Shown in pieces: positions 10,899 to 63,545 of a DNA stretch of 64,000 bases (position 1 is the stretch's first letter; each line of letters begins with the position of its first letter). The notes under the pieces are model-generated. The model worked only from the letters and a program-made list of their open reading frames with translations, had not been told where the DNA came from and searched no databases. Source of the DNA: Candidatus Zixiibacteriota bacterium (lineage in GTDB: Bacteria > Zixibacteria > MSB-5A5 > GN15 > FEB-12); contig JACZXB010000003.1 of the NCBI GenBank assembly GCA_022571845.1, positions 186,001 through 250,000 on the forward strand. Direction: 5' to 3'. The position numbers were made by a program, and so were the translations under genes.

Positions 10899-10987
10899 GG
10901 AGAGGTGGCCGAGTGGCTGAAGGCGCACGCCTGGAAAGTGTGTATAGGTAACCCCTATCCAGGGTTCGAATCCCTGCCTCTCCGCCA
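10899..10987 (+). tRNA. tRNA-Ser (anticodon GGA)
   Basis: A complete cloverleaf can be drawn: acceptor GGAGAGG paired with CCTCTCC, D arm, anticodon stem CACGC/GTGTG with loop CTGGAAA (anticodon GGA at 10933-10935), a long variable arm typical of serine tRNAs, T arm CAGGG-TTCGAAT-CCCTG, discriminator G and an encoded CCA. It reads serine codons UCC/UCU. The tyrosine integrase gene starts 113 bp downstream, so this tRNA is the probable integration site of the island to its right. Confidence 0.97.
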
Positions 10988-11100: not shown

Positions 11101-12204
11101 ATGGCTACAATCTACAAACGAGGCCGGACATGGTATCTCGACCTCCGGGTCAACGGTAAACGAATCCGTCGTAAAGTTGGCAGCTCCAAAAAAATTGCCG
11201 AACTGGCCTTGAAGGATGCCGAAGTAAAGATTGCCCGTGACGAGTTCGGATTTACCAAAAACGATATTGGCCTCCGAAAGTTTTTCGACCGCTTTTTGGA
11301 GTATTCAAAGGCAATCCACCAAATAACTACAACTAACCGGTATCGAGCCGTGATTGATCACTTCATTACTTTTCTCAATGAGAAACGACACGCCTTGGGC
11401 TTTCTGTCTCAAATCACTCCTGAGGTTATAGACCAGTACAAGGTGCATCGAAAAACTGTATGGATAAATCCGAATGGCAGTCAGGTTGAAACTAAAGAAG
11501 GAATAAACGGCCATGCTCGAAAAGGCGCCCGAGCGCACACGATCAATTTTGAGATTGGTACGCTGAGGACGATTTTCTATCTCGCGATGAAGTGGGGTTA
11601 TCTGAAAGAGAATCCTACAAAATCAGTGAAAAGGCTCAAGGTCGATGATTCCAAAAAGATTCGTCTCCTTTCAACAAAAGAGTGTAAACGGTTACTTGAA
11701 GCATGTCCACAGGAACTGTATCCGATTTACTTTACCTTTCTTAACTCTGGCTTACGTAAAGCTGAGCTTGAGAATTTGGAGTGGGATGATATTGAATTTG
11801 ACAGACGTAAGATTAAAGTTCAGCGTAAAACATTCTGGAAACCGAAGACAGGAGAACGTGAAATTCCGATTAACTCTCCTTTAATGAGTCTCTTGAAAGA
11901 TTTACATCTCAAAAATGAACAGGGTCTTCAAAGTAACTTTGTTTTTCCGCATAATGATGGCAGTAAGATTAAGACCAAAATCAGGGAAAGACTGATTAAA
12001 ATTGCAGAACAAGCAGGTATCAAAGAGTTATCTCGGGTACATGACCTGCGGCACACCTTTGCCAGCCATTTGGTCATGAAGGGAGTGGACCTTCCAACGG
12101 TAAAAGAATTGTTAGGTCATTCAAATATTGAAACGACAATGATCTACGCTCATCTTTCCCCGGATCACTTGTCAGATTCGGTAGAGAAGTTAGATTTTGG
12201 CTGA
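11101..12204 (+). CDS. int: Tyrosine recombinase / phage-type integrase of the tRNA-Ser island
   Basis: The 367-residue protein has an N-terminal arm-type DNA-binding region (about 1-50), a SAM-like core-binding domain (about 60-165) and a C-terminal catalytic domain. Visible catalytic residues are the Arg in SGLRKAELE, the HDLRHTFASH box (His-x-x-Arg) and the terminal nucleophile Tyr in MIYAHLS, with the LLGHSNIETT box before it. All active-site residues seem intact. Its position directly after tRNA-Ser and next to a divergent excisionase-like gene is the classic layout of an integrated element. Confidence 0.95.
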   Translation: MATIYKRGRTWYLDLRVNGKRIRRKVGSSKKIAELALKDAEVKIARDEFGFTKNDIGLRKFFDRFLEYSKAIHQITTTNRYRAVIDHFITFLNEKRHALGFLSQITPEVIDQYKVHRKTVWINPNGSQVETKEGINGHARKGARAHTINFEIGTLRTIFYLAMKWGYLKENPTKSVKRLKVDDSKKIRLLSTKECKRLLEACPQELYPIYFTFLNSGLRKAELENLEWDDIEFDRRKIKVQRKTFWKPKTGEREIPINSPLMSLLKDLHLKNEQGLQSNFVFPHNDGSKIKTKIRERLIKIAEQAGIKELSRVHDLRHTFASHLVMKGVDLPTVKELLGHSNIETTMIYAHLSPDHLSDSVEKLDFG

Positions 12205-12225: not shown

Positions 12226-12438
12226 CTACTCGAGTATATCTAGTCGTGGTGTTCTTTTGAATCTTCCCTTTCTTTCCCGACGTTCAATCCATTTCACAAC
12301 CGTTGACGGTCGAAATCTAATTAGCCGCCCCAGCTTAACACACGGAATCTGACGGGTATGCGTCCAGTGATAAATAGTGCTCAGTTTAACACAGAGCATG
12401 TCCGCGACTTGTTGAGGTGACAGCAGTGAGTCGTTCAT
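12226..12438 (-). CDS. Excisionase-like helix-turn-helix protein
   Basis: This 70-residue basic protein is nearly all a winged-helix/MerR-type DNA-binding fold: LSPQQVADMLCVKLSTIYHW followed by the wing IPCVKLGRLIRFRPSTVVKWIE. That is the pattern of the excisionase/HTH_17 family. It could act as recombination directionality factor for the adjacent integrase (convergent, 21 bp away) or as regulator of the operon it ends. Its ATG overlaps the stop of the kinase gene by 4 bp, so it is translated with the operon. Confidence 0.85.
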   Translation of the reverse strand: MNDSLLSPQQVADMLCVKLSTIYHWTHTRQIPCVKLGRLIRFRPSTVVKWIERRERKGRFKRTPRLDILE

Positions 12439-13682
12439 TTTGGCGTGTACTGTAAAGGTGTGTTGGCGACCAACAATCGGTCGTTCGGGTTAAGTTTTGT
12501 CATCGTACCAGGATATATCATAACCCATTTATCATCGTGCCATCTGCATGTGGGATTCAGACCGATCGGCTCCAGATAGAGAGAATTGCCAATTCTTCGG
12601 ACTATGATATGACCCCGACTGATATGATTGCTTCCGCCAAGTTGATTACGACCTAGAATTGTCACCAAACCGGATAATTCAATGGTTTCCCCGGTATCCA
12701 GCCGCAATTCACATTTCTGCAACTGATGACCGTAGGGGCAAGCCCTCCGCTCGTTATCATTTATAAAGGGAACATTACAAATAGAACAGGAAGATATGTT
12801 CTGCGATGCCGTATGCAGTGCCTGGACCCATGTTTCAATGCTTGGTCTGCCTTGAGGATTTGGCGACAACGCTGCTCTCAGCAAATTGATGATTTCAGGA
12901 TTGAGAGTGTCCACCGGATAGCCATGCGGGTTATCAAGTACCTTTTTATTCTTAGGATCATAAATCCACCCGATTAACATTGCTTTATCAATTTCTTCGA
13001 TAGTCTGATCAAATCCGGCGATCGGATGAAAGTGCAGCAGTACTTCATGTACTAACACACCAAATGAGTAGAGGTCACTTTCTTTTGTCAGGATTACTTT
13101 CTGTTTTCCGTTATGCTGATTTCGTAGCTCGGGTGCCAGATAGAGAGTCATGCCGATCATTTCCGGGGGAGGCACCCCTGCCGCTCGATAATTATCCAGG
13201 TCAATTGCGTATACCTGAATTCGATCATTCTTCCACTCTATTTTGAAGTTCTGTGTCTGTAGGTCCCCATGAATAATACCCACTGACATGATCTTTTGTA
13301 TTAGTGATGCTATCTGACGGGCTGCCTCGACTGCTTCCTCAAATCTCAGTTTGGCCTGTTCAAGCGCCTCAAGTAAAGTGATACCCTCAGCGTATGCTGC
13401 TACATGGCCCATATATCCACGCTTTGTAACTGTCTCAAGAGGTGAACAGATGCGTGAATCCAGTTGATGCAGTTTCAATGCCTGCAGGTGTCTAATCCTC
13501 TTTTTCGTTTTCTCAATTGCATATGACTGATAAAACAGCTTGAACACAATAGGCTCGTTTTGGTTTTGCAGCCGACCTTGATAGACGTCGCCCTGACCAC
13601 CGTCGGCAATAAACTGCTCAATCTGAATACATTTGCCGGAATCTGTTATCAGTTTAGTAGCAGAAGTGAGTCTCTGGCTCAT
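12435..13682 (-). CDS. Ser/Thr protein kinase with zinc ribbon and FHA-like domain
   Basis: The N-terminal kinase domain (about 1-285) shows a glycine loop GGQGDVYQG, the ATP-binding Lys in VFKLF, the catalytic loop HGDLQTQN and a metal-binding Asp in IDLDN (DFG position altered to DLD). After it comes a zinc ribbon (CSIC ... CPYGH, about 300-330), then a C-terminal phosphopeptide-binding FHA-like beta domain (about 330-415). The ATG at 13682 is preferred over the TTG ten codons upstream. It overlaps the PP2C gene, so kinase and phosphatase are a matched pair. Kinase plus PP2C plus VWA is the TerY-P triad known from comparative genomics. Confidence 0.9.
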   Translation of the reverse strand: MSQRLTSATKLITDSGKCIQIEQFIADGGQGDVYQGRLQNQNEPIVFKLFYQSYAIEKTKKRIRHLQALKLHQLDSRICSPLETVTKRGYMGHVAAYAEGITLLEALEQAKLRFEEAVEAARQIASLIQKIMSVGIIHGDLQTQNFKIEWKNDRIQVYAIDLDNYRAAGVPPPEMIGMTLYLAPELRNQHNGKQKVILTKESDLYSFGVLVHEVLLHFHPIAGFDQTIEEIDKAMLIGWIYDPKNKKVLDNPHGYPVDTLNPEIINLLRAALSPNPQGRPSIETWVQALHTASQNISSCSICNVPFINDNERRACPYGHQLQKCELRLDTGETIELSGLVTILGRNQLGGSNHISRGHIIVRRIGNSLYLEPIGLNPTCRWHDDKWVMIYPGTMTKLNPNDRLLVANTPLQYTPK

Positions 13683-14628
13683 TACCGTAATCCCTATTTC
13701 TCTGGTCTTCAATTGAAGTTCCTACTATAACATTGGAGTGTCTCATGTTACTGAGGCACCCCAATGAGACGTTGTCATTGCAGATATAGCCTTCGTCATC
13801 TTTGTAATTGGCCAAATCATTGACAGTTGATGTGACAGCTTCCTGCAGGTTTCCATTTGCAGTTTCTACATTGCTGACAAAATTTGAGATGACCATGGGT
13901 GCGCTCCCATTCTCAGGAACAGGGTAGATGCGGTCTGCTATACCGTCTGTCATCGCAATAATGAGATCATTCTCCGCTCGTCTGAATGCTCGGCTACGTG
14001 GTTTACCGTGAACAGTCGGACCCAGTGATGCTGATAAAAGACTCAGATTTCCGGGAAAGGCCTTTTGAGGCTCAAGCAATGCCTGGCATTCCGTCGCACT
14101 CTTGTAGTGATATACGGCACCATCCCCAATGTAAGTTAAAGTCGCATGACTTTCATTGGAAATGACGATAATAAGTGTCGTTCTCAACCCGCTTGTTATT
14201 ATATTGAGTTTGTCTCCACAACAGGCAAGCAAAAATCTTGCTTTTTCAAGTGCACTTGCAGACAATTCAAGCAACTCATTAGTGTTCATACATGTATGTA
14301 AGTCTGAGAGAATGGTGTTACTCGCTGACGATACGGCCAAAAATGACGCTAATCCACCATGAGTCAGTCCACCCATTCCATCAGCCAGAAGCAGGATCTG
14401 GTGACCTTCATAGTTGAAGGCCACCCCGTAGTCCTGATTCTCTTCCCGTACATTCCCTTTCACCGTCGCGAATCCGAAATTCCAGGCATTATTTTGTGCG
14501 AATCCGGCGAAGTACGATCTCAATTCAATCTGCTGCAAGAGTTTCTTATGAAACGTTTGTGGAGACGGAATCTCAGCAATTCGTATTCTGGTGGCGAGGG
14601 CGGGAATTGATTCTCTCAATTTGTTCAT
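13654..14628 (-). CDS. PP2C-family Ser/Thr phosphatase
   Basis: The 324-residue protein carries PP2C metal-site motifs in order: REENQDYG (about 60-67), LLADGMGG (about 80-87), YIGDGAVY (about 165), MTDGIAD (about 230) and NDNVSLG (about 290). It is expected to dephosphorylate the targets of the adjacent kinase with Mn/Mg. Its 3' end overlaps the kinase start by 29 bp. An N-terminal ~45-residue extension before the fold and a C-terminal ~30-residue polar tail are of unknown use. Confidence 0.92.
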   Translation of the reverse strand: MNKLRESIPALATRIRIAEIPSPQTFHKKLLQQIELRSYFAGFAQNNAWNFGFATVKGNVREENQDYGVAFNYEGHQILLLADGMGGLTHGGLASFLAVSSASNTILSDLHTCMNTNELLELSASALEKARFLLACCGDKLNIITSGLRTTLIIVISNESHATLTYIGDGAVYHYKSATECQALLEPQKAFPGNLSLLSASLGPTVHGKPRSRAFRRAENDLIIAMTDGIADRIYPVPENGSAPMVISNFVSNVETANGNLQEAVTSTVNDLANYKDDEGYICNDNVSLGCLSNMRHSNVIVGTSIEDQRNRDYGNEPETHFCY

Positions 14629-14668
14629 TCTCGTTTTCCTCCTATAACTGTTGTTATTTGAGTATTGA

Positions 14669-15346
14669 TTACTTGTTGATCTCCGCCAATGGTTGTGTCG
14701 CGTCTATTCCAGCTCTAATTGATTCTGAAAGTGTTGATCCAACCGCCGCCATGAAGGCTCGCAAATCATGCCCGTCCTGACACCGATAACAGTGCTCCGG
14801 GCTACTCGCTATCTGACGCAGCAGATCGAGATCAGCATCACTTCCAAAGGCTACACAAACAATGTCTGCGATCTGCTTGAGTTGCTCTGACTCTTTGTAC
14901 GGCTGGCATCCTGTATTATGCCCACCATCGGTGAACAGGATTACAACAGGTTTCAGGAACTGTTCGCTGCTATCGAGACTGTCGTCAGCCTCATCGAGAA
15001 GCTCTCTTGCTTTGGCAAGACCTGCTGTGATATTAGTGTAGTATGAAGTGCTGATTTCACTCAGACTCCCCTCAAGCTCGGTAGCTCTTGCAAAAGGCAC
15101 AGAAACCTCGGCTATCTTGGCAAAGTCGATGACGGCAAGGTAGAAACCGTCCTTGTTTTCGGGTCTGGCCAGTTCGGCCAGGAAGTTCTGCGTCGCTGTA
15201 CTGGCGTCTCTTGCCTTGTCGTCATCATCCATCGATACAGATGCATCCCTGACAAAGATGGCCCTTTGCTTTGTCTTGCTAGTGATCACATCAGGCCGCT
15301 TCAAACCGCTTAGCTGGAATGATCTGTTTTGTTCACTACTAGTCAT
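14669..15346 (-). CDS. VWA-domain protein, TerY-like
   Basis: The start ATG at 15346 has AAGGAG 7 bp upstream; a longer frame exists but lacks such a site. The ~225-residue protein is a single von Willebrand A domain with an intact MIDAS metal site: DASVS (about residues 33-37), the central Thr in TNITAGL, and FTDGG. TerY proteins of this type occur with PP2C phosphatases and kinases like the two genes just downstream. It probably acts as a scaffold that binds a protein ligand through the metal. Confidence 0.88.
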   Translation of the reverse strand: MTSSEQNRSFQLSGLKRPDVITSKTKQRAIFVRDASVSMDDDDKARDASTATQNFLAELARPENKDGFYLAVIDFAKIAEVSVPFARATELEGSLSEISTSYYTNITAGLAKARELLDEADDSLDSSEQFLKPVVILFTDGGHNTGCQPYKESEQLKQIADIVCVAFGSDADLDLLRQIASSPEHCYRCQDGHDLRAFMAAVGSTLSESIRAGIDATQPLAEINK

Positions 15347-15459
15347 AATCTTCTCCTTTACTACAGGTTGGTTTTCTGGTAAATTGTGTTCGTCTGTTGG
15401 CATTTGCCTTAAATCCAATCCTCTTTTGTTTGATGTTTATTTTCATCTATCTCTATTTC

Positions 15460-15918
15460 TCAATCTTTGTGCAATATTCTGAATCCCAACCCGACAAAGA
15501 GCAGAGCAATTCCCCAAAGAACCGTTCCCTTGAATCCGACATACTTACAGGTTAACCGGAAAAACGGCACTCTCTCAGGTCCAGGGATGTTAGTGTTAGC
15601 ATCAACCCATAAAATCCAAAGAGGGTACAGTAAAAGAGATACAAGTAGTGCTATTCTATGCCAGTGGATGAGGTAAGTGCGTTCCTCTTCGGTGCTGTCT
15701 TTATATATTTCAGTTTCATCTGGTGGCGTCTGAACTATTCTGTACATCAACCATCCAGCTAAGGTCAGCAGAATAAATCTGCAAATGGTCGTAAATCCTG
15801 AACAGTCAATGCAAAACGGTAACGCTTCACCGAAGCCGACATCACTACCGCAACGATCAAACCAGTCCCAGACCAACAGACAGCCAAACAACAGCGCTAT
15901 GAGTTTGAGAAGTTTCAT
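15460..15918 (-). CDS. Small multi-pass membrane protein of the kinase operon
   Basis: 152 residues with about four hydrophobic helices (1-20, 45-65, 88-107, 130-148). It has several cysteines (FCIDCSGFTTIC) that could bind metal or form disulfides, but no assignable family. Its ATG overlaps the previous stop by 4 bp (ATGA), so it belongs to the same operon and may anchor the signalling components at the membrane. Confidence 0.75.
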   Translation of the reverse strand: MKLLKLIALLFGCLLVWDWFDRCGSDVGFGEALPFCIDCSGFTTICRFILLTLAGWLMYRIVQTPPDETEIYKDSTEEERTYLIHWHRIALLVSLLLYPLWILWVDANTNIPGPERVPFFRLTCKYVGFKGTVLWGIALLFVGLGFRILHKD

Positions 15919-16763
15919 TTCTTAACGTCCAGGAATTCTATCAGGTCTCCGGCCAACTCCACCCGTACGGGGCAGGGGATTCCCTCACGTTGAACCAGTT
16001 CGCTTAGGAGATTAATTAACGGCCGCTTCATCTTCCGGTCTGTAACTGCTAGGATCAACTCATCCGGTAAAGGATCCCCTTCAAGATCTAACTTTACGTT
16101 AGTCATCTCCTTTTGAACCGGCCAGCTAGCGCATACTTCTACATAAATGACATTGTTTTCTTTTTCCGTACGCAAATCTATCAGCTTGCCATTTGGGTGC
16201 TGATATTCAATCTTTGTTTGGTAACCATGATGTTTGTAAGTAGTAGCAATGCGATGCACACTGAATTTATGTTTGAAGCCTCCTTTTGAGCTCCATGTAG
16301 GAGCTGGGTGATTGATTACCGCATATCCCTTATCGGTAATCTCCCAGTAGCAGGCGCCGGTTTTAGCCAGTGGCAAACTATGCTTTATATTGAGGCCGAG
16401 TTCCAAAGCTTTCTTTTCCGCTTGTAACACTGATGCTGCGCCGGTAATACCGGCTAAGGCCGCCGCCTCACTGCGAAAGAGAAACGGAGGTTCATGCTCG
16501 ACCTGTGCCTTCATAATTCGTAAGGCATTTCGCAACGGCTGTGATATTTCTCCGAAAGAGGCAGATAACGACGAAAAATCGTTAGCCGCCGATTCAGAGC
16601 CTCTTGGCTGTGCTTCTGAAAAGAAATCAGATTGGATTTCGTTCGAAACCATAATTTCTCCTGACACTAACTTTGAGATGACCAAAGATTCGTCGTCATA
16701 TAAAATTTCTTGTGATCTTTTCGAGATGTTACGAATCTCCTTGATTGTAGCTGTGTTGGTCAA
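15915..16763 (-). CDS. Winged-helix protein with possible nuclease-like domain, partner of HerA-type ATPase
   Basis: 282 residues. The first ~80 are low-complexity and polar. Residues about 85-165 look like a winged helix (ALRIMKAQVEH ... LAGITGAASVLQAEKKALELG ... WEITDKGYAVI). The C-terminal half has an alpha/beta pattern with KLIDLRTEKENNVIYVEVCAS, resembling the D...E-x-(K) spacing of restriction-nuclease-like folds but with Cys in place of Lys. Winged helix plus such a domain next to a HerA/FtsK ATPase recalls replication-relaxation (Replic_Relax) proteins of mobile elements; this is only an inference. ATGA overlap with the ATPase gene. Confidence 0.72.
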   Translation of the reverse strand: MTNTATIKEIRNISKRSQEILYDDESLVISKLVSGEIMVSNEIQSDFFSEAQPRGSESAANDFSSLSASFGEISQPLRNALRIMKAQVEHEPPFLFRSEAAALAGITGAASVLQAEKKALELGLNIKHSLPLAKTGACYWEITDKGYAVINHPAPTWSSKGGFKHKFSVHRIATTYKHHGYQTKIEYQHPNGKLIDLRTEKENNVIYVEVCASWPVQKEMTNVKLDLEGDPLPDELILAVTDRKMKRPLINLLSELVQREGIPCPVRVELAGDLIEFLDVKK

Positions 16764-18079
16764 ATTACCTCCCTATGAATCTGAAGCGTGAACGGATGCG
16801 GGTTGCGAATATCCTTGACGACCGCCGATCCTGGCTGGCTGATCGTCCGCATAAAGTCGCGCTGACCCCGATTGAGACCGACCGCTGAACCAAACGCCTC
16901 ATAGTCTGAACCATGACCAAAACCGCCAACCGCTATTTTGATTGCCGTATTGGCAAAAATTTCATCGGCGAGATTCATCGACTGGCTGGCGAAAATGACG
17001 CCGATTCCGAAAGCCCGGGCTTGTTGGAAATAGTCAAGTAACATAGACGTCTTTTTGGAACCTGTCTTGGGGAAAATCATCGATGCTTCATCAAGAACAA
17101 TAAGCGCTTCAAGCTTATCGCTGCGGAGATTGTTGTAGATTCTATAAAGAAGCAGCTTTGCAAAATAGATGGTGATACACAAATTCTGCAGCGAGGGCGC
17201 CAATCCCGCCAAACTGAGTGCCAGATCGAAATCACTAAGTTTCCGCCAATCAAGGCTTGTATGAGATGAGGCGGCATTGCCAAACACAGTGACGAGTGTC
17301 CGTGTCCGATGGCCGAGCCGCAAAAGTGTCTCTCTGGCCGACCCTTTAGCCTGTTCGGCACGAACAAACAAGTGCTTGGTCAATTCTCTCAAAGTTGGAT
17401 AGGTTGATTTCGGACGATTGCGGGTTCTCGAAAGCTGTTTCAGGACATCAATAATCAGGAATTGAGCTCCAATGTGAAGTTCGAAAGATGCCGTCAAAAT
17501 CTCGGCTAGTATATTGAACCAGGTCATACTATCAACGCCGTATGGCGGGGCACACCAGTTGTCCATGAAATCTTCCAGAAGGAAGTAAAGAAGCCGAAAC
17601 TCTATTGCCAGATCATAAAAGTCCTGTTTGCGATCAAAGATGATAATCGTCTTGTGCTTCTTCATCCTAAGAAGATGCTTCAGGATGATTTTGATGACTG
17701 TGGTTTTACCGCCACCGGTTCTACCAACGCAACACAAGTGCTCCGTTAACGCTTCCGGGTGTATTCCCCATGCAACGCCGGAATGGTGGACAATGCCTAA
17801 ATTGATCGGTCCGGTAAGTCGACTTGGCGTAGTTGGATTAATCCGTCGAAAGGGATCAGGGTCTAAGATATCCTGCATGTCTACCGAACGGATTCTTTCT
17901 TGAACGTACTGAACGCACTCGATGTCGTACGGATTGACTGACAACTGCTGTAAAGCTGACATTATAAGCGGGTCAGAAGTCAGATCACGGGTTGTGCAGT
18001 CCAACCATAGCTTTGATGTGTCAGCTTGAAATATTCTTCCAGGTTGAAACGCCCGATTGAATCTCCCTTTACGTGCCAT
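16760..18079 (-). CDS. HerA/FtsK/VirD4-type P-loop ATPase
   Basis: 439 residues with Walker A GRTGGGKTT (about 118-126), Walker B LIVLDEAS (about 325-332) and the downstream FASQS sensor-like element common in HerA, VirB4 and TraD/TraG ATPases. The region after Walker A (TIIIFDRKQDF) also fits. It probably forms a hexameric DNA or protein pump. With its overlapping winged-helix partner it could be a transfer coupling protein or the motor of a defence system. No TM helix is visible at the N-terminus, unlike typical VirD4. Confidence 0.9.
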   Translation of the reverse strand: MARKGRFNRAFQPGRIFQADTSKLWLDCTTRDLTSDPLIMSALQQLSVNPYDIECVQYVQERIRSVDMQDILDPDPFRRINPTTPSRLTGPINLGIVHHSGVAWGIHPEALTEHLCCVGRTGGGKTTVIKIILKHLLRMKKHKTIIIFDRKQDFYDLAIEFRLLYFLLEDFMDNWCAPPYGVDSMTWFNILAEILTASFELHIGAQFLIIDVLKQLSRTRNRPKSTYPTLRELTKHLFVRAEQAKGSARETLLRLGHRTRTLVTVFGNAASSHTSLDWRKLSDFDLALSLAGLAPSLQNLCITIYFAKLLLYRIYNNLRSDKLEALIVLDEASMIFPKTGSKKTSMLLDYFQQARAFGIGVIFASQSMNLADEIFANTAIKIAVGGFGHGSDYEAFGSAVGLNRGQRDFMRTISQPGSAVVKDIRNPHPFTLQIHREVI

Positions 18080-24295: not shown

Positions 24296-25606
24296 TCAAT
24301 AGCTTAGCTTAACCAAAGGAACCCTCAAGAGTACTGGCTCATTAAACCTATATTTACATTTAACTATTGCCTCACCGATTCTAAGTTTATCAATGTATCT
24401 TTGTTCATCAGGCTTCAGGTTCATAGACCTAGACATCACTGCAATGTCATTTCCAGCTCCCAAATTAAAGCAAATCTTTGTGCTAGTATTAGCAATTACT
24501 GACTGACTCAATTTGCTGGGTTCTTGATCTATAACAATCACACCTTCACCAAATTCTCTAATCATTCTTAGAGTAGTTTCAATCACGGTTTCCTCTCCCT
24601 CCGCTCTTTCTTTTCGAGCAGACAAGACATGATGAGCCTCTTCTAAGACCGTTACGTGGTTCAGTTTATTTGATTTCCCCTGAGACTTCTTAAAGTGATA
24701 CAACCACAGAATCAGGCTTTCAGCCATGAAAGTCTTCTCAAGGGTAGCCAGGTTGTCCATTTCAATTATTACATTTTCCTTAAGAATTTTGTCAAGGTTC
24801 CTGTTTTCTTGCACATTCAATACCTCTCTCAAAATACCCTTGAAAGTCAGACTCGCCACTGCTCTCTTGGCAGATGACATCCAGAGCATTTCCCTACCTT
24901 TCACATACTCTTTAACTAGTACTTTTTCTAACTCAATAAATGTGGGGTAGCGTTTGCTTCCTCTATAGACACCGAATTGCTCGTACAACTGATCTATAGC
25001 CTTCCTCAGAATGTATTCTACTCCGTGACCCAAAAAATAGCTGTGTTTAAGAATGTCAATCAACATGGGCATCCAGTGTCTCGGATGAATCCCGGGAGGA
25101 GGGATCAAAGGGTTAAATGCGAAGTCACTGCCTTCTTCTCCCAAACGAATGACTCTTAGATTCTTTAGTACAGGTACCTGCTTCAGCTTTCTATAGTTCT
25201 GCTTCCAATCAAAAACTAAAAAGGGAATCTTGTGCTCTGCCAATTGCATTAGAAGTTGCAATGCGAGATTTGTTTTCCCTGAACCTGTCATACCTGCAAT
25301 AAACACGTGTCGTAACAAATCTTGTTCTGTAAGACCAATTTCTGAATAAACGTTATTTGGATAGATGACGTTGCCTAAATGATACTGTCCCCGTGTCTCT
25401 TGGCCAGAGGGTGGAGGTAATCTGATTAGTTCCTCATAGTCAACCTTGGCGTATTTATCAGCCAGAAGCTTCAGGAAGTTTTTATTCGCTATATCAGAAT
25501 CATCTTCACTCGAAAACAGGTTCCAATACCAAAGTTTTTTAACGACTGTTGGTAAAACCGGCTTAAGTTTTTGCAATAAGCTATCTATTTCAGTGTTATC
25601 TGTCAT
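24296..25606 (-). CDS. HerA-type hexameric ATPase
   Basis: 436 residues with Walker A GMTGSGKTNLA (about 107-117), a following strand IPFLVFDWKQNYRKL typical of HerA/DUF87 proteins, Walker B HVTVLEEAHH (about 320-329) and the arginine-finger/sensor region FGEGVIVIDQEPSKLSQS. The N-terminal ~90 residues likely form the HAS-barrel-like domain. HerA-type pumps act on DNA with nucleases or methylases. Here it closes an operon with two methyltransferase-like genes. Its similarity to archaeal HerA-type ATPases is my impression only. Confidence 0.9.
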   Translation of the reverse strand: MTDNTEIDSLLQKLKPVLPTVVKKLWYWNLFSSEDDSDIANKNFLKLLADKYAKVDYEELIRLPPPSGQETRGQYHLGNVIYPNNVYSEIGLTEQDLLRHVFIAGMTGSGKTNLALQLLMQLAEHKIPFLVFDWKQNYRKLKQVPVLKNLRVIRLGEEGSDFAFNPLIPPPGIHPRHWMPMLIDILKHSYFLGHGVEYILRKAIDQLYEQFGVYRGSKRYPTFIELEKVLVKEYVKGREMLWMSSAKRAVASLTFKGILREVLNVQENRNLDKILKENVIIEMDNLATLEKTFMAESLILWLYHFKKSQGKSNKLNHVTVLEEAHHVLSARKERAEGEETVIETTLRMIREFGEGVIVIDQEPSKLSQSVIANTSTKICFNLGAGNDIAVMSRSMNLKPDEQRYIDKLRIGEAIVKCKYRFNEPVLLRVPLVKLSY

Positions 25607-25666
25607 TCTGCGTCCTTTTGACCAACTCAGCTTTTAATGAGTGTTTTTCCAAGCTTTCTTTTCTGG

Positions 25667-26512
25667 CTAGGCAGCTTTACGTTGATTTAGACTGCTAATT
25701 GAGCCTAGTGGCTTGTATTTTAGTGTGCCGTTTTCTAGTTGTTGTAGTCGGTCTTTGATTATTTGAATATATTTGGGCACCCTTTCAGCACCAGCACACC
25801 TTCTATTGTGCAAGAGTGCGGCAATGGCAGTCGTTCCTGAGCCTAAGTAAGGATCTACTACCAGGTCTCCAGTATTGGTGAAGGCAAGTATCAGGCGCTC
25901 CATCAGCGCCACCGGATAAGGGCAAGGATGAGTTGTATGTTCAATTTGGCTTTTGGGAATCAACCAGACATCACCAGGGTTTTTGCCCAGCGGACTTCCC
26001 ATCAATTGTCCTTTTTTCTCTCCTTGAGAGTATTTCTTTCTGGCTGCTTTACGCGGGACCCTGATGGCATCAAGGTTGAAAACATAATCGTTAGATTTTG
26101 TGAACCAGAGAACTGTTTCATGTCGCCCTGATAACCTCTTGAAGCAATTCAAACCGGTCTCAAAATGCCAGATAATACGATTCTTTAACCTAAAGCCATG
26201 TTTCTTGAATAAAGGGTAGAATAGAGCGTCAAGTGGGAAGATTTGGCCTGATCGTACATATGTTCCTACCTGCCAACAAAGACTGCCTCTGGGATGGAGG
26301 ATTCTAACACATTCTTTTATTAATGGCTCAAAGCTATTTAGATAGTCTTTCAGTGGTTGTCTTGTTTCGTATTCTTTGCCAAGGTTATAAGGGGGAGAAG
26401 TAACAATTAACCTGGCGCTGTTGTCCGGAATCTGGCGAAACAACTTCAGGCAATCTCCGCTATATAACAGAAATTTCTCTTTCTCATTGTAAGTTGAACT
26501 TATTGATACCAT
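25667..26512 (-). CDS. DNA methyltransferase (N6-adenine or N4-cytosine), beta-type motif order
   Basis: From the preferred ATG at 26512 the protein has about 281 residues. Motif IV TSPPYN lies near residue 40, and the SAM-binding FxGxG motif I (VDPYLGSGTTAIAA) near the C-terminus, about residue 238; this permuted order defines the beta class. Between them the target-recognition region is short. A longer frame upstream lacks an RBS and overlaps the previous gene. Chemistry (adenine or cytosine) is not decidable from the motif SPPYN alone. It is probably not paired with a restriction nuclease in this window. Confidence 0.92.
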   Translation of the reverse strand: MVSISSTYNEKEKFLLYSGDCLKLFRQIPDNSARLIVTSPPYNLGKEYETRQPLKDYLNSFEPLIKECVRILHPRGSLCWQVGTYVRSGQIFPLDALFYPLFKKHGFRLKNRIIWHFETGLNCFKRLSGRHETVLWFTKSNDYVFNLDAIRVPRKAARKKYSQGEKKGQLMGSPLGKNPGDVWLIPKSQIEHTTHPCPYPVALMERLILAFTNTGDLVVDPYLGSGTTAIAALLHNRRCAGAERVPKYIQIIKDRLQQLENGTLKYKPLGSISSLNQRKAA

Positions 26513-26525
26513 TTTTGTTTTTCTT

Positions 26526-26921
26526 TCAAGTATTCTCGATGATTTTGAACTTCTCACGTGCATTGGTAAGTTCTTCATTCGCACGCTGGTGTTGATCTTC
26601 AAGCTTTATTATGTCGTTAAAGCAGCCTGTCAGTTCTGTGCCAATCTGATTCTCAATTTGTAACAAATCTTGTTTTGTTCTCTGCTCTCTACTACTTCCA
26701 GCACCAGAAAGCCAAATGTATCTCATCCTATGTAGTTCATCTTCAAATTGAAGCCTTTTTGTGCCAAGTTTAGTTAACAGCAAGTCACTTAGTTTGCGTC
26801 TCTCAAAAATTTGTGACTCAAGCATTGCTATCCTTTTTTCAAGATTTGAAACCGGCAGGCGAATGAGTGCGCTTATTACGTCTTCTTCTAACGCTTTTGT
26901 ATGCTGAGTGTATTCCTCCAT
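26526..26921 (-). CDS. Coiled-coil hypothetical protein
   Basis: 131 residues, mostly alpha-helical with heptad-like stretches (LEKRIAMLESQIFERRKLSDLLL and near the C-terminus). No enzyme motif. It is between the winged-helix gene and the methyltransferase, 13 bp from the latter, and likely bridges components of the operon's complex. Confidence 0.7.
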   Translation of the reverse strand: MEEYTQHTKALEEDVISALIRLPVSNLEKRIAMLESQIFERRKLSDLLLTKLGTKRLQFEDELHRMRYIWLSGAGSSREQRTKQDLLQIENQIGTELTGCFNDIIKLEDQHQRANEELTNAREKFKIIENT

Positions 26922-26943
26922 TTGTGCTTAGCAGTCAGTTTAA

Positions 26944-27204
26944 TCAATTGAGCTCTGCTTTCAGGTTCATTAGAGATACTGCCATGCGTTCTCCTTTTTT
27001 AGTTAGCGTTAACAGTTTGGTCTTTCTTGTACAAGAGATTTCAATCAGGCTTTGGATTGCTAGTTTCTTAACAATTTCACGAACATGCGAACGCGATGTA
27101 TTCAATCGCCGATAAAGCCTTTCTGCGTACCTATCACGCTTACGACTACCATAAATGGCAATTAGGACAGCCTGCCAGCGGGGGAGTCTGATGAACTGTA
27201 TCAT
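26944..27204 (-). CDS. Winged-helix DNA-binding protein
   Basis: 86 residues with a MarR/ArsR-like winged helix: AERLYRRLNTSRSHVREIVKKLAIQSLIEI then a wing TRKTKLLTLTKKGERMA. It overlaps the upstream methyltransferase-like gene by 4 bp. It may regulate the operon or bind DNA as part of the complex. Confidence 0.8.
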   Translation of the reverse strand: MIQFIRLPRWQAVLIAIYGSRKRDRYAERLYRRLNTSRSHVREIVKKLAIQSLIEISCTRKTKLLTLTKKGERMAVSLMNLKAELN

Positions 27205-27866
27205 TGTGTAAATAGATCTGGCTCGATTCTTTCTGATTTAACTTTGAGTTTGTCAATTTGAGAATACCAATTATTGGCATACTTCCAGTTTTCCCGGCCT
27301 GCTTTAGTGGAAATATCAATCTCATGCCTAAGACTATCTGCGTGGAGAAGGTAGCCTTGGATATTGTGTATGGCCAGATTGGCATAGGCAATTCGAAGCA
27401 GTCGAAGATCCGTATCAACACCAAACAACCTGGCCTTTGGAGCTTGCCTATGAGCAGCCATCAAGAGCCTGCCGCTGCCAACCGCAGGGTCAAGGATATT
27501 TACTTTCTGGTCAGTCTTTTCAATAGTTATATTAGCCATTAAGCTCCCCACTTCCATAGGCGTCAGATAGATTCCTTGGCGTTGAACTTCACTCTTGCTC
27601 AATAACTTCTCGATATACATCTCACCCAGATGATCGTAATAATCCGAATTGAGCAGCTTTGAGTCATAGACGGCCATGAAATCTTTTGCTAGTTGGCTAT
27701 CGTCAAAGAACCATTCAAATCTGTGGTTGAGCTGAAAAAACAGGGGAGCACAGTTGTCCACTGCAATGAATTCAATCAGTCTGTCCCAGGCTTTCGAAGG
27801 GTCATGTAGCTTTCTTTCGAGTATTCCGTACGAATTTTCGAGCATGGTTCTGACTTCTGGTATCAT
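27201..27866 (-). CDS. N6-DNA-methylase-like protein without catalytic motif IV
   Basis: 221 residues. It shows QGIYLTPMEVGSLMANI and the SAM-binding motif LDPAVGSGRLLMAAHRQ (about 124-140) of gamma-type adenine methylases (HsdM family), then VDTDLRLLRIAYANLAIHN. However the sequence ends soon after HADSLRHEID and never shows the NPPF/Y catalytic motif. It is thus SAM-binding but probably inactive alone; it may need the beta-type enzyme two genes away, or be a truncated methylase. The ATGA overlap with the next gene argues that it is a settled part of the operon. Confidence 0.78.
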   Translation of the reverse strand: MIPEVRTMLENSYGILERKLHDPSKAWDRLIEFIAVDNCAPLFFQLNHRFEWFFDDSQLAKDFMAVYDSKLLNSDYYDHLGEMYIEKLLSKSEVQRQGIYLTPMEVGSLMANITIEKTDQKVNILDPAVGSGRLLMAAHRQAPKARLFGVDTDLRLLRIAYANLAIHNIQGYLLHADSLRHEIDISTKAGRENWKYANNWYSQIDKLKVKSERIEPDLFTQ

Positions 27867-27917
27867 TCTCGTTTACAAATGATCACCCCTGTTTAGTTGG
27901 TTTGATAATTTTAGAGA

Positions 27918-28253
27918 TTACTTATTAAGCACCTTGACAGTGTATTTCTCGAAATCAAGATGTTCGAGTTCTAATACAGCTTGAATTGTGCCTGCCTGCC
28001 GAAGGACTGCTGAAATTGCTTTCCAGAGAACCCATGAGTTGACTGTCAGCAGTCTGCCCTCTGTGGACTCTATGATATACTTGTAGTTGACCCTGGAAAG
28101 ATTATCCTGTTTTGAAGGATTGGTAATCTTACGTATTTCTTTTATCTCAAATCTAGGAATCTTCTCACCTATACGTAGCGAGAGGAATGAAGAACTGAGG
28201 TCATCAACTGATACGTTTGTTACTTCGCTGCCAGGAGGTATGTCCGATGTCAT
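27918..28253 (-). CDS. Hypothetical protein, possible OB-fold
   Basis: 111 residues with a beta-rich pattern (FLSLRIGEKIPRFEIKEIRKI ... YKYIIESTEGRLLTVNSWVLW), which might be an OB-fold nucleic-acid binder, but no signature proves it. It overlaps the coiled-coil gene by 4 bp and precedes the methylase-like gene by 51 bp. Confidence 0.65.
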   Translation of the reverse strand: MTSDIPPGSEVTNVSVDDLSSSFLSLRIGEKIPRFEIKEIRKITNPSKQDNLSRVNYKYIIESTEGRLLTVNSWVLWKAISAVLRQAGTIQAVLELEHLDFEKYTVKVLNK

Positions 28254-58523: not shown

Positions 58524-59840
58524 ATGCAATCTCAACAAATTCAGTCTATACCTGACGAATTCAAAACAGATATTTATAAGGGACAGACTCACTACTTACG
58601 CGGCCTAGATAAATTGAAGAGAGATGAACTCATAAATTCGGTTGATAAGGACTTGATTATAAACTTCATAAGAGAATGTACACTCAGTAAAACGGTCAAA
58701 GGTAAGAGCAAGAAGAAAATAGGCCCAGCACGGTGTTTAAAATACATAGAGATTCTGACAAGAGTTTCTAGTTGGCTGGATAAGTCATTTGATAGAATAA
58801 CGGGGAAAGATATAGAGGAATTCATTGAAGCGTTGGAAGGCGATAAATTTCTTTCCAGATTTGGAAAGCCATATGCAGATGAAACAAAAGCTGATATCAA
58901 AAAATCCGTAAAGAAATTATGGAAATGGAAAGACGGCAATGGCAGAGTGTATCCAGAACTAGCTCGAAAAATCTCGATTGATTTATGGGAAGGAAATTGC
59001 CGGCAAATTTTGAAAGATCTTGACGATAATAGCGTTCAGTTAACACTCACAGATCCACCGTATTTTCTTGAAAAATTGGACGACAATTGGGATGACAATA
59101 AAATTAAAAAGAGCAAAGCAAAGGCCGGTGTAGTGGGTGGGCTTCCAGTCGGGATGAAATTTGATCCGAGACAGGGCGTCGCCTTTCAAAAGTTTTTTGA
59201 AGAAATTTCCAAAGAAATTTACAGAGTATTAGTACCCGGTGCCTTCTTTATCTCATTCAGTCAACCCCGGTTGTTTCACAGAATGGCTATTGCCGCCGAG
59301 AATGTCGGCTTTGAGATTCGAGATATGTTCGCATGGCATTACACAAAGAAGACACAGTTCAAAGCGTTTTCGCAAAATCATTTTGTTGATAAGATGAAAA
59401 TTTCTGCGAAGCGAAAGAAGCAAATAAAACTTGAATTGATGGGTAGAAAAACAGCACAATTACGCCCGCAATTTGAAGCCCTTATGTTGGCACAGAAACC
59501 AAAGGAGGGGACTTGTGTAGATAACTGGCTCAAGTGGAAAGTTGGGTTGATTGATTCTACCAAAATCTTGAATGGAGCGGGTTCGCCCTCAACTGTAATG
59601 CCAGTCGAAAAAACGATCAAGGAATTGTACAATGTACATCTAAGCGTAAAGCCCGTTGGGCTTTTAAGACACTTAATAGAATTGTTTACAGTCGAAGGCC
59701 AAGTTGTATTAGACCCATTTCTGGGTAGTGGCTCAACCGCTATCGCCGCAATGCTTACAGGTCGCGGATGTATTGGTATTGAGATCAACCCCGAATATAT
59801 AAAGATTGCTAAACAACGATTATCGAAAGCAGGGAAATGA
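58524..59840 (+). CDS. Recombinase core-binding domain fused to a DNA methyltransferase
   Basis: 438 residues in two parts. Residues about 1-150 match the N-terminal SAM-like core-binding domain of the tyrosine recombinase at 62292, including an almost identical TVKGKSKKKIGPARCLKY block and KKxWKWKDGN at the end. Instead of a recombinase catalytic domain, residues about 155-435 are a beta-class DNA methyltransferase: motif IV TDPPYFLEKLDDNWD (about 178), then motif I VLDPFLGSGSTAIAAM near the C-terminus (about 395). No recombinase Arg/His/Tyr site remains. It may methylate DNA bound by the recombinase domain. The junction has no frameshift. Confidence 0.93.
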   Translation: MQSQQIQSIPDEFKTDIYKGQTHYLRGLDKLKRDELINSVDKDLIINFIRECTLSKTVKGKSKKKIGPARCLKYIEILTRVSSWLDKSFDRITGKDIEEFIEALEGDKFLSRFGKPYADETKADIKKSVKKLWKWKDGNGRVYPELARKISIDLWEGNCRQILKDLDDNSVQLTLTDPPYFLEKLDDNWDDNKIKKSKAKAGVVGGLPVGMKFDPRQGVAFQKFFEEISKEIYRVLVPGAFFISFSQPRLFHRMAIAAENVGFEIRDMFAWHYTKKTQFKAFSQNHFVDKMKISAKRKKQIKLELMGRKTAQLRPQFEALMLAQKPKEGTCVDNWLKWKVGLIDSTKILNGAGSPSTVMPVEKTIKELYNVHLSVKPVGLLRHLIELFTVEGQVVLDPFLGSGSTAIAAMLTGRGCIGIEINPEYIKIAKQRLSKAGK

Positions 59841-60146
59841 TAAAACCAAGACGACTTGCCCAAATGGGTACGATCTATATGCAGGAAGCGGTTCGCGGAT
59901 ACGGATTCGATGCACTCTTTACTTGACAATTCGCTTCGGAACAAATTGCATCTTTGTTGTTATTTTGGCCGGAGTGAACAGGGCTATCTGCAAATTCTTT
60001 CGCCAAGTTATAAAATAGCTCAATTCTTGGAAAACAATGGGCAGGACCATAAAAATAATCCTGCCCAACGCAGGGCTGTCTCTGAGTGAGACAGAGGGGG
60101 GCTTTTAGTATTACCATAATTTAGAAAATAGTCCAATATTGTCAAC

Positions 60147-60652: not shown

Positions 60653-60892
60653 GCTGGTTTGGTTTCAGTGCTAATTCTTTTTGTTTTTCTTTTTTTTCTT
60701 TTTCAGTTGGGCCTATATCGAAAGACTTAAATACTTTGCTGTCAATCGGGCGCTTTCAAATTGCCCCAAATAGTATTAAATCAATTGCCTGCATGGCAGA
60801 ACCGAACGGAAACGTTATGGGCTCGGTCCGCGCATAGAACACATGCGTTCGGGTGCGCAAATATTTATAAAGGCAGAACGCTGCTAAATAGC

Positions 60893-62086
60893 ATGGCATT
60901 TGTAAAGATTGAAATACATAAATCAAACTTTCAATCAAGCAAGAGATTATATCAAAAGAGATTTCCAATAGAAGCCAAATACACAAGCAAATTTCTTCAG
61001 CTACTATCTATCGGAGAGATCAATCGGGGAAGACAGGTTGGTGAAAAGAGACAATTAAAATGTCTTTATGCTCTTTCCATATTTTTTACTCACTATAAGA
61101 AGCCTCTCTCAAGAATAACTAAGAAAGATATGCAGCACTTTATTGACAAACTAAGTAAAGACAAGATCAAGAAGATAAACAAAGAACCTTACTCGGATTC
61201 CACGAAATTGGATGTTAAGATCATATTGAGAGCCTACTTGAAATGGAGGCTACCCCAAAAGTACGCTGATCTTACTGAATGGTTTGATATGAGACTTAGG
61301 AAAACGACTCCGGAATGTCTCACTGAGGATGAAATTGAGAAAGTGTACAATGCCTGTTCGACAGTGTCAGAAAAGTTCTTGATCTCTGTGTTGTTCGATT
61401 CAGGGATGCGAGCAGAGGAGTTCCTGAATGTAAGGTTTGAAGACATTATTGAGCCTACAGAAAGTTTTCCATACTACAAAATTGACATCAAAGAAGAATA
61501 CTCGAAGACTGACGGTAGAACTGTCGGCTTATACTGGAAGCACAGTACTAAGATCATCCGAGAGTATCTTTCAGAGTGCAACAGACAACCAAAAGAGCCA
61601 GTCTACGCAAAAGACTATGATGCTGTAAGGATGTTTCTGACAAGACTTGGAAAAAGGGTCTTAAACAAGAGGGTTCATTGTCATCTATTCAGGAAATCAT
61701 CAGCCACCTACTACGCTCCTAAGCTCAACAGGCAGCAACTCTGTATTCGGTATGGCTGGAAGTTCAGCTCTGACATGCCTGACATCTATATCAAGAGAGC
61801 AGGTATCGATGAAGAAGAAGTAAAGGCCAAGATTCTCAATGCCAATCTTGAAAAACTGGAGAAAGATAATCAGGAGTTACAGACAAAGTTCGCCTTGATG
61901 AAGGATTCCAGTGATGAGGAGCTTCAGAAACTCAGCAAAGAACTCGAATCTTTGAAGGGCGGTAGAGGCTTTATGACTTTGCTGACAGGTCTTGCTCGAC
62001 AGCAAAAGCTGATGGCCGATGAATTAAAAGGTCTGACCGGCAAGAAGTTTGACTTTGTGCTGGGACGAAGGAATGAAGTGGGCTAA
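60893..62086 (+). CDS. Tyrosine recombinase with coiled-coil C-terminal tail
   Basis: From ATG 60893, about 397 residues. The N-terminal core-binding domain (about 10-150) precedes a catalytic domain with Arg in LFDSGMRAEEFLN, HLFRKSSAT (His-x-x-Arg) and Tyr in PDIYIKRAG. After the catalytic domain come a coiled coil (about 310-355) and a conserved tail LARQQKLMADELKGLTGKKF shared with the recombinase at 62292. The overall cast (LNRQQLCIRYGW) is like archaeal-type integrases. A longer frame upstream has no ribosome site. Confidence 0.92.
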   Translation: MAFVKIEIHKSNFQSSKRLYQKRFPIEAKYTSKFLQLLSIGEINRGRQVGEKRQLKCLYALSIFFTHYKKPLSRITKKDMQHFIDKLSKDKIKKINKEPYSDSTKLDVKIILRAYLKWRLPQKYADLTEWFDMRLRKTTPECLTEDEIEKVYNACSTVSEKFLISVLFDSGMRAEEFLNVRFEDIIEPTESFPYYKIDIKEEYSKTDGRTVGLYWKHSTKIIREYLSECNRQPKEPVYAKDYDAVRMFLTRLGKRVLNKRVHCHLFRKSSATYYAPKLNRQQLCIRYGWKFSSDMPDIYIKRAGIDEEEVKAKILNANLEKLEKDNQELQTKFALMKDSSDEELQKLSKELESLKGGRGFMTLLTGLARQQKLMADELKGLTGKKFDFVLGRRNEVG

Positions 62087-62291: not shown

Positions 62292-63545
62292 ATGGAATCA
62301 AAACAATCGACTCCAATTCATGAAGAAGGGGAAATTGACATTCATCATCGAGTAGAACAGTATAGGAGAGCACTTGAGAAGTTTGAGATAGATAAAACTA
62401 TTATTCCTGAAAATAAAGAAAGAATTTCCAACTTTCTCCGTGATTGCACTCTTGGCAAAACAGTTAAAGGAAAAAGTAAGAAAAAGATTGGTCCAGCTAG
62501 ATGTTTGAAATATCTCAGTATGTTGACGAGAATATCAACTGAATTGAAGAAACCATTTGATCATGTAACTCAAGCTGACATGGAAGAATTTGTTCAAAAT
62601 TTAGAAGAAGAAAGGATGCTCACTCGTTCAAATAGACCATTTAGTGATGAATCAAAAGCAGACTATAAGAAAACCATTAAGAAATTTTGGAAATGGAAAG
62701 ATGGAAATAATACTCACTATCCAGAGATTGTGGAATGGCTGGACACTTCAGTTAAAGTGAAAGAAATCCCGGCACTGTCTCGAGAAGAGGTTGACAAGCT
62801 CATAGAAGCGCCACCGTCAGCTCGTCAAAGGGCGCTGATCATGGTTCTCTTCGATTCCGGAGCAAGAATTGAGGAACTACTGAATGTGAGGCTGAAGTCT
62901 GAACACGTTATGTGGAAAGAGGACGTTGGATGTTATATGATTCGCCTAGAATTTAGCAAAACCAAACCGCGAACAATATCACTTCCATTGTCGACCAAAT
63001 ACATGCGAGAATGGCTTGAAGTGCATCCTGCGAAAGGCAATGCTCAGGCGCAACTCTTTCCAATTACTTATGGGAATCTCAGGATGATTCTGTATCGATT
63101 GGGGAAGAGGGTTTTGAATAAAAGAGTTACTGCCCATGTCTTGCGCCATAGTTCCGCTACGTTCTTTGCCAACAAGTTGAACCACTATCAACTGTGTAAC
63201 CGATACGGCTGGACCATGAGTTCCGATCAAGTCAATCGGTACATTGATAGGGCAGGTATTCTCGAAGAGCAGACGACCATGCTCATCAAGAGTGATGAAA
63301 TCACCCAAGCTCAAGTACAAAATAAAGCGATTTCAGAGGAGCTTTCTCTACTGAAAGAACGCAACGAAACTCTTGAGCGCCAGCTTGGTGTATTGACCGG
63401 CAAGTTCAAGGGATCGGAATCTGGCGAGAGTTTCTTGAGGCTCCTGAATGATCTGGCAGATCAGCAGCGGGAAATGGCGGTCGACCTGGGCCGCCTTACC
63501 GGCAAAAAGTTCGATTTAGTTATTTATTCTTCTCGGCCCTCCTGA
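62292..63545 (+). CDS. Tyrosine recombinase, N-terminal twin of the methyltransferase fusion
   Basis: 417 residues. Core-binding domain about 30-150 with TVKGKSKKKIGPARCLKY as in the fusion protein; catalytic domain about 165-330 with Arg in FDSGARIEELLN, HVLRHSSAT (His-x-x-Arg) and Tyr in VNRYIDRAG; coiled coil (about 335-375) and tail LADQQREMAVDLGRLTGKKF shared with 60893-62086. All catalytic residues look intact. Both recombinases and the fusion protein probably recognise related DNA sites. Confidence 0.94.
   Translation: MESKQSTPIHEEGEIDIHHRVEQYRRALEKFEIDKTIIPENKERISNFLRDCTLGKTVKGKSKKKIGPARCLKYLSMLTRISTELKKPFDHVTQADMEEFVQNLEEERMLTRSNRPFSDESKADYKKTIKKFWKWKDGNNTHYPEIVEWLDTSVKVKEIPALSREEVDKLIEAPPSARQRALIMVLFDSGARIEELLNVRLKSEHVMWKEDVGCYMIRLEFSKTKPRTISLPLSTKYMREWLEVHPAKGNAQAQLFPITYGNLRMILYRLGKRVLNKRVTAHVLRHSSATFFANKLNHYQLCNRYGWTMSSDQVNRYIDRAGILEEQTTMLIKSDEITQAQVQNKAISEELSLLKERNETLERQLGVLTGKFKGSESGESFLRLLNDLADQQREMAVDLGRLTGKKFDLVIYSSRPS

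Follow-up and report, generated by a model that had tools for sequence, protein, structure and literature searches.

Within a 64,000-nucleotide stretch of a bacterial genome (hereafter the window, which is part of contig C16 of a 2.75 Mb assembly with 21 contigs and 98.8% completeness), a single open reading frame of 438 amino acids (58,524–59,840, forward strand) joins the N-terminal region of an archaeal-type tyrosine recombinase to a beta-class DNA methyltransferase. This fusion gene is real and rare, and we favour, with moderate confidence, the reading that it arose by a chance in-frame fusion and encodes a working orphan methyltransferase behind a partly degenerating recombinase leader. 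We prefer this reading because the relatives of the methyltransferase share a fixed context of transposase and small ORF, the latter with a truncated 5′ end left behind the fusion, and because the methyltransferase part appears constrained, the recombinase part relaxed and the architecture a singleton.

The frame begins with ATG, runs through its 438 codons without an internal stop, and lies entirely inside contig C16 in the assembly sequence. Residues 1–64 (58,524–58,715) form an extension typical of the archaeal-type recombinase family, followed by the SAM-like core-binding domain of the recombinase at residues 65–147 (58,716–58,964) and a complete beta-class N6/N4 DNA methyltransferase at residues 148–438 (58,965–59,837), all on the forward strand. 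The border at residues 64/65 was taken from the phrog_1 and XerA_Arch matches on the recombinase at 62,292, which start at about residue 65–72. The junction falls at about residue 147, between YPEL and ARK and near the boundary of the core-binding and catalytic domains, where the recombinase reads YPEIVEWLD, the fusion YPELARKISIDLW, and a methyltransferase relative VKPARRKTFVDLY. The proposal of the initial annotation that the catalytic half had been replaced by a full beta-class methyltransferase was borne out: PF01555 is matched over its complete profile (1–221/221), homology searches found no recombinase catalytic sequence downstream between 59,840 and 60,761, and a Pfam search found no PF00589 match in the fusion protein. 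Because the catalytic domain is absent, and with it every one of the R-K-H-R-(H/W)-Y residues, the protein cannot be a recombinase. The join was confirmed as real in the assembly. An assembly chimera of two separate genes, which the number of contigs (21) and the unique architecture might suggest, is extremely improbable. Neither missing half is present at another locus of the host: the most similar other methyltransferase reaches 71% identity, and a search of the genome for a stranded recombinase catalytic half found none. The join also preserves the reading frame and falls at a domain boundary, and beyond the methyltransferase stop the sequence is still homologous to the operon of the relatives.

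The closest relative of the N-terminal part in the window is an archaeal-type tyrosine recombinase of 417 amino acids (62,292–63,545, forward strand; PF00589 E 1.5e-10), which also matches the NCBIfam model recomb_XerA_Arch at E 2.3e-22, below the cut-off. Its candidate catalytic residues (R192, K223, H282, R285, W307, and Y317) are all six invariant among seven relatives. Residues 1–147 of the fusion are 52% identical to it (E 1.7e-42), and an 18-residue basic string (TVKGKSKKKIGPARCLKY, residues 57–74 of the fusion) is identical in both. The two regions had been described as nearly the same; the homology and the identical string stand, while near-identity does not, since identity is uneven, at 31% over residues 2–36 and 59% over residues 37–147. 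The motif (G)KIDIHxR at residues 13–20 has been lost through G13F, I15T, H18Y, and R20G. A profile of seven recombinase N-termini, built with the fusion left out, matched it at E 2.7e-53 and matched neither shuffled copies of the segment nor four plain methyltransferases of the same clade, so the likeness to the recombinase domain passed the homology check at the sequence level and, together with the 52% identity, identifies the segment as the SAM-like core-binding domain of a tyrosine recombinase. The Pfam integrase SAM-like family (PF13495) gave only a weak match at residues 74–106. This assignment is made by sequence homology and is independent of structure models. AlphaFold2 models were computed from few input sequences (mean pLDDT 62 and 63); the low-confidence N-terminal model (pLDDT 62) places helices at residues 39–53, 68–85, 94–105, and 119–132, a predicted layout compatible with a core-binding domain. 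With this model Foldseek ranked XerA third, with a non-significant E of 1.4 and the top probability among the hits shown (0.44). The fusion thus shares the N-terminal extension and the core-binding domain (residues 1–147) with the archaeal-type tyrosine recombinases (recomb_XerA_Arch; PF00589; known from DPANN archaea and as pleolipovirus integrases of Archaeoglobi), but lacks the catalytic domain that these possess.

In the other half, N6_N4_Mtase (PF01555) was matched at residues 171–431 (E 1.1e-35), with the motifs in beta-class order, motif IV (DPPY, 177–180) preceding the AdoMet motif (FxGxG; here FLGSGST, 399–405), while homology to methyltransferase relatives extends past the Pfam borders to about residues 148–438, and phrog_67 was matched at E 2.9e-59. 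The closest relative, of 315 aa, is encoded on contig C21 of the host genome itself (71%; L053:1344–2291); the next, of 320 aa, comes from genome G062 of the same class (67%; L054:9742–10704). In G062 the methyltransferase gene overlaps at its start with the gene of an IS1595-family transposase (NF033547, E 2.4e-60) and at its stop with a 97-aa ORF, the three genes lying within 36-bp terminal inverted repeats that are 83% complementary. This element (L054:8743–11020) combines a DDE transposase with terminal inverted repeats around translationally overlapping passengers, as do the IS1595-family tIS, transposons with passenger genes (PMC7986276, PMC5704250). The copy on C21 (L053:1138–2623) is a decayed form that retains a transposase fragment, a 99-aa ORF, and a terminal-repeat-like end. 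At the fusion locus neither transposase nor terminal repeats are left, and no IS1595 transposase above threshold was found in the host genome; what persists is a truncated remnant of the 97–99-aa ORF (59,837–59,926, forward strand; tblastn E 3e-4; translation MIKPRRLAQMGTIYMQEAV...), homologous over some 19 codons (to about 59,893), whose start overlaps the methyltransferase stop as in the relatives. More distant relatives were solitary methyltransferases on viral contigs (50–62%) and on Thermus plasmids (45%). The fusion has all motifs of the orphan beta-class methyltransferases (PF01555; phrog_67; CcrM- and MboIIA-like), but none of the aligned relatives, which start 27–54 residues before DPPY, has a recombinase domain in front. 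By homology, the source of this half is a clade of stand-alone methyltransferases carried as IS1595 passengers (still so in G062, formerly on C21), and its origin would therefore be an ordinary one. A GTG at codon 142 of the fusion could serve as the start of a methyltransferase of stand-alone size.

Constraint on the two halves was compared by counts of invariant residues, as the third codon positions of the recombinase part are saturated and gave no dN/dS (codon-position branch lengths). Invariant positions were defined among seven true recombinases, which were themselves scored leave-one-out. Over residues 37–147 the fusion keeps 30 of 39 invariants and has lost nine (N41D, D51E, G55S, Q94G, M97I, I129V, F132L, N140G, and V147A), several of them conservatively (D51E, M97I, I129V, F132L), compared with 14 of 287 (about 5%) lost in the true recombinases (Fisher p 0.0005). 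The loss is heavier in residues 2–36 (4/5; p 0.02 against residues 37–147), although the core-binding part is still 53–59% identical to true recombinases. When archaeal relatives were added, the fusion lost 4 of 13 deeply conserved positions and the bacterial recombinases 0–1, a comparison in which some archaeal recombinases lose as many as the fusion, or more. The methyltransferase half keeps 63 of 65 family invariants and all motifs; its loss (2/65, 3.1%) resembles that of its relatives (26/546, 4.8%; p 0.76) and differs from that of the recombinase half of the same protein (9/39; p 0.002). In trees, the fusion has the longest amino-acid branch of the recombinase part (0.47 vs. 0.23–0.40) and, in the methyltransferase part, the shortest branch from the node uniting it with its two close relatives. 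These comparisons indicate that the recombinase part is under relaxed constraint and that the methyltransferase part is constrained; relaxed drift and changed function are inseparable in the former because of the saturated third positions, and its open frame is no evidence of function, since the methyltransferase too would be lost by a stop in that part.

The same counts bear on whether the gene is a non-functional relic in which neither half is used and the frame is open only through recent fusion. Mobile-element debris around the fusion, the broken small ORF, and the relaxed recombinase part would fit such a relic, but we consider it highly unlikely, given the 63 retained methyltransferase invariants and intact motifs. 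In addition, the small-ORF remnant has changed at 4 of its 10 invariants, a higher share than the methyltransferase with 22 of 189 (p 0.03), and therefore some time would have passed without decay of the methyltransferase.

The architecture was searched for well beyond the window. It was found only in the fusion itself among 132 genomes of the window's phylum, without other copies in the host genome, and was absent from 371 genomes of the Woesearchaeota phylum, 227 Asgard genomes, phage records, plasmid records, and viral contigs. A scan of 84,980 species with one genome each, keyed on exact 8-residue patterns from one sequence and therefore able to rule out only close relatives of the fusion, returned methyltransferase relatives and zero fusions, and scans of viral contigs with N-terminal or recombinase alignments gave no confirmed relatives. 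A methyltransferase follows in the fusion alone among the N-terminal homologues with an inspected locus; in the rest, apart from the truncated L099 and L102, recombinase catalytic sequence comes next. Four short-frame archaeal homologues with a locus were checked as candidate further fusions, those without one (such as G257, G410, G377, G400, and G170) being left out: the catalytic sequence of a recombinase follows in L088 and L096, and L099 (156 aa) and L102 (at a contig end) have no second domain. The fusion is thus a singleton among all homologues found in the collections searched, in agreement with the earlier remark that no described family is known to have such an architecture. A literature search found no description of it either, which is weak evidence of absence, as subscription journals were mostly outside its scope.

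What has been observed comprises the junction and the homology on either side of it, the clade from which the methyltransferase came, and the shortened remnant of the small ORF; on this basis a course of events can be proposed. The region is variable and rich in defence genes, and here an IS1595-carried clade would have supplied an orphan beta-class methyltransferase that came to be joined to the 5′ half of a gene for an archaeal-type tyrosine recombinase, with loss of the recombinase catalytic half and of the transposon ends. The product would still be active as an orphan DNA methyltransferase, translated from the start signals of the recombinase gene or from the internal GTG, with a recognition sequence presumably set by the methyltransferase itself. 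The recombinase part may be mainly tolerated as a drifting leader that perhaps still makes some non-specific contact with DNA. Against a chance fusion speaks that the core-binding part has not collapsed, given the invariants and identity that remain (30/39; 53–59%) and the conservative nature of several losses, and that the excess loss in the first 36 residues (p 0.02) would be unexpected under uniform neutral drift. An old fusion with changed constraint would give the same pattern as a drifting leader.

The alternative is a targeted methyltransferase, whose core-binding domain recognises the core sites of the recombinase at 62,292 or of a sibling and brings the methyltransferase there; recombination sites would then be blocked or marked, either by methylation or simply through competition. 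The largely kept core-binding region with its basic string identical to that of the recombinase would favour it, as would the functional-looking recombinases 1–3.7 kb away and the location of this recombinase family in a methyltransferase-rich defence region. We nevertheless regard it as doubtful: constraint is relaxed in exactly the recombinase part, the architecture is a singleton, and no non-coding repeats, as candidate common core sites, were found to be shared by the neighbourhoods of the fusion and the recombinase (57.7–64 kb). Moreover, tyrosine recombinases that have been studied closely owe a large part of their site affinity to the catalytic domain as well. The related proposal that methylation is guided to the recombinase's own sites, and thereby regulates whether a methylation-linked defence island is integrated, excised, or inverted, is unlikely. 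The earlier suggestion that a recombinase domain delivers methylation to recombination sites was therefore not supported, in view of the singleton status, the relaxed recombinase part, the lack of common repeats, and the ordinary IS1595-passenger origin. If the domain did still target, the gene would be a case of natural recombinase-guided DNA methylation, linking mobile-element integration directly to epigenetic marking and of possible use for locus-directed methylation; if not, the chance fusion documents the capture of IS1595 passenger methyltransferases by other genes and draws attention to an archaeal-type recombinase that is tightly tied to a methyltransferase/HerA defence cassette.

In the window, this cassette (24,296–28,253, reverse strand; context outside the fusion) comprises a HerA-like ATPase, an N6/N4 methyltransferase, an N6-Mtase-like protein, and a 111-aa ORF. 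All seven phylum genomes with a close recombinase (the window's host, G023, G040, G048, G068, G074, and G087) carry recombinase and cassette on one contig, 2.5–35 kb apart, and the cassette's N6-Mtase-like protein (210–221 aa) was found in 2 of the remaining 125 genomes (Fisher p 3e-10). In L063, as in the window (24.3–28.3 kb), the cassette also has the N6/N4 methyltransferase and the HerA-like ATPase. Among the PADLOC models, mad8 is matched by the ATPase (E 4e-22) and, weakly, mad2 by the MTase-like protein (E 8e-9), which recalls MADS/HerA-type methylation-associated defence in single components rather than as a complete MADS operon. The cassette methyltransferase has only its C-terminal part in common with that of the fusion (49% over 65 residues, L063 copy). 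In archaeal genomes the link between recombinase and cassette was not seen, the N6-Mtase-like matches being weak and mostly in longer, methyltransferase-sized ORFs. In this phylum the recombinase thus appears to belong regularly to a defence island, which may be mobile and have it as integrase or as a standing component. This makes a functional tie between recombinase and methylation less far-fetched; for the fusion itself such a tie is a possibility.

Elsewhere in the window (12,435–18,079, reverse strand), the translations of an operon-like group, judged by eye, suggest a putative Ser/Thr kinase, PP2C-type phosphatase, VWA-domain protein, and HerA-like ATPase, with a tRNA-Ser (10,899–10,987) and an integrase gene (11,101–12,204) nearby; the kinase-, phosphatase-, and VWA-like genes resemble the TerY-phosphorylation triad.

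A second archaeal-type tyrosine recombinase (60,893–62,086, forward strand; PF00589 E 1.2e-8; the ORF may start at 60,761) is 36% identical to the one at 62,292. Six other genomes of the phylum each have one close full-length relative of the latter (53–62% identity), and there are two more distant matches besides; the wider family (E ≤ 1e-4) extends to the Woesearchaeota phylum (77 of 371 genomes) and the Asgard archaea (1 of 227 genomes), the nearest annotated relatives being pleolipovirus integrases of Archaeoglobi. In two genomes of the same genus, gene pairs of a Mre11-like phosphoesterase and a Rad50/SbcC-like ATPase lie just downstream of the recombinase (L052:7009–10790 and L058:11683–14855), their proteins being just about 20–28% identical over parts. 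An OLD-family AAA/TOPRIM nuclease-like gene (PADLOC Old, GajA) is found downstream of the recombinases at L052:11131–13059 (reverse strand). A short tyrosine recombinase of 226–230 aa, mostly catalytic domain, occurs in three genomes (L058:1166–1846, L059:18857–19543, and L060:13864–14556) with 53–57% identity among them, in each no more than about 10 kb from the archaeal-type recombinase.
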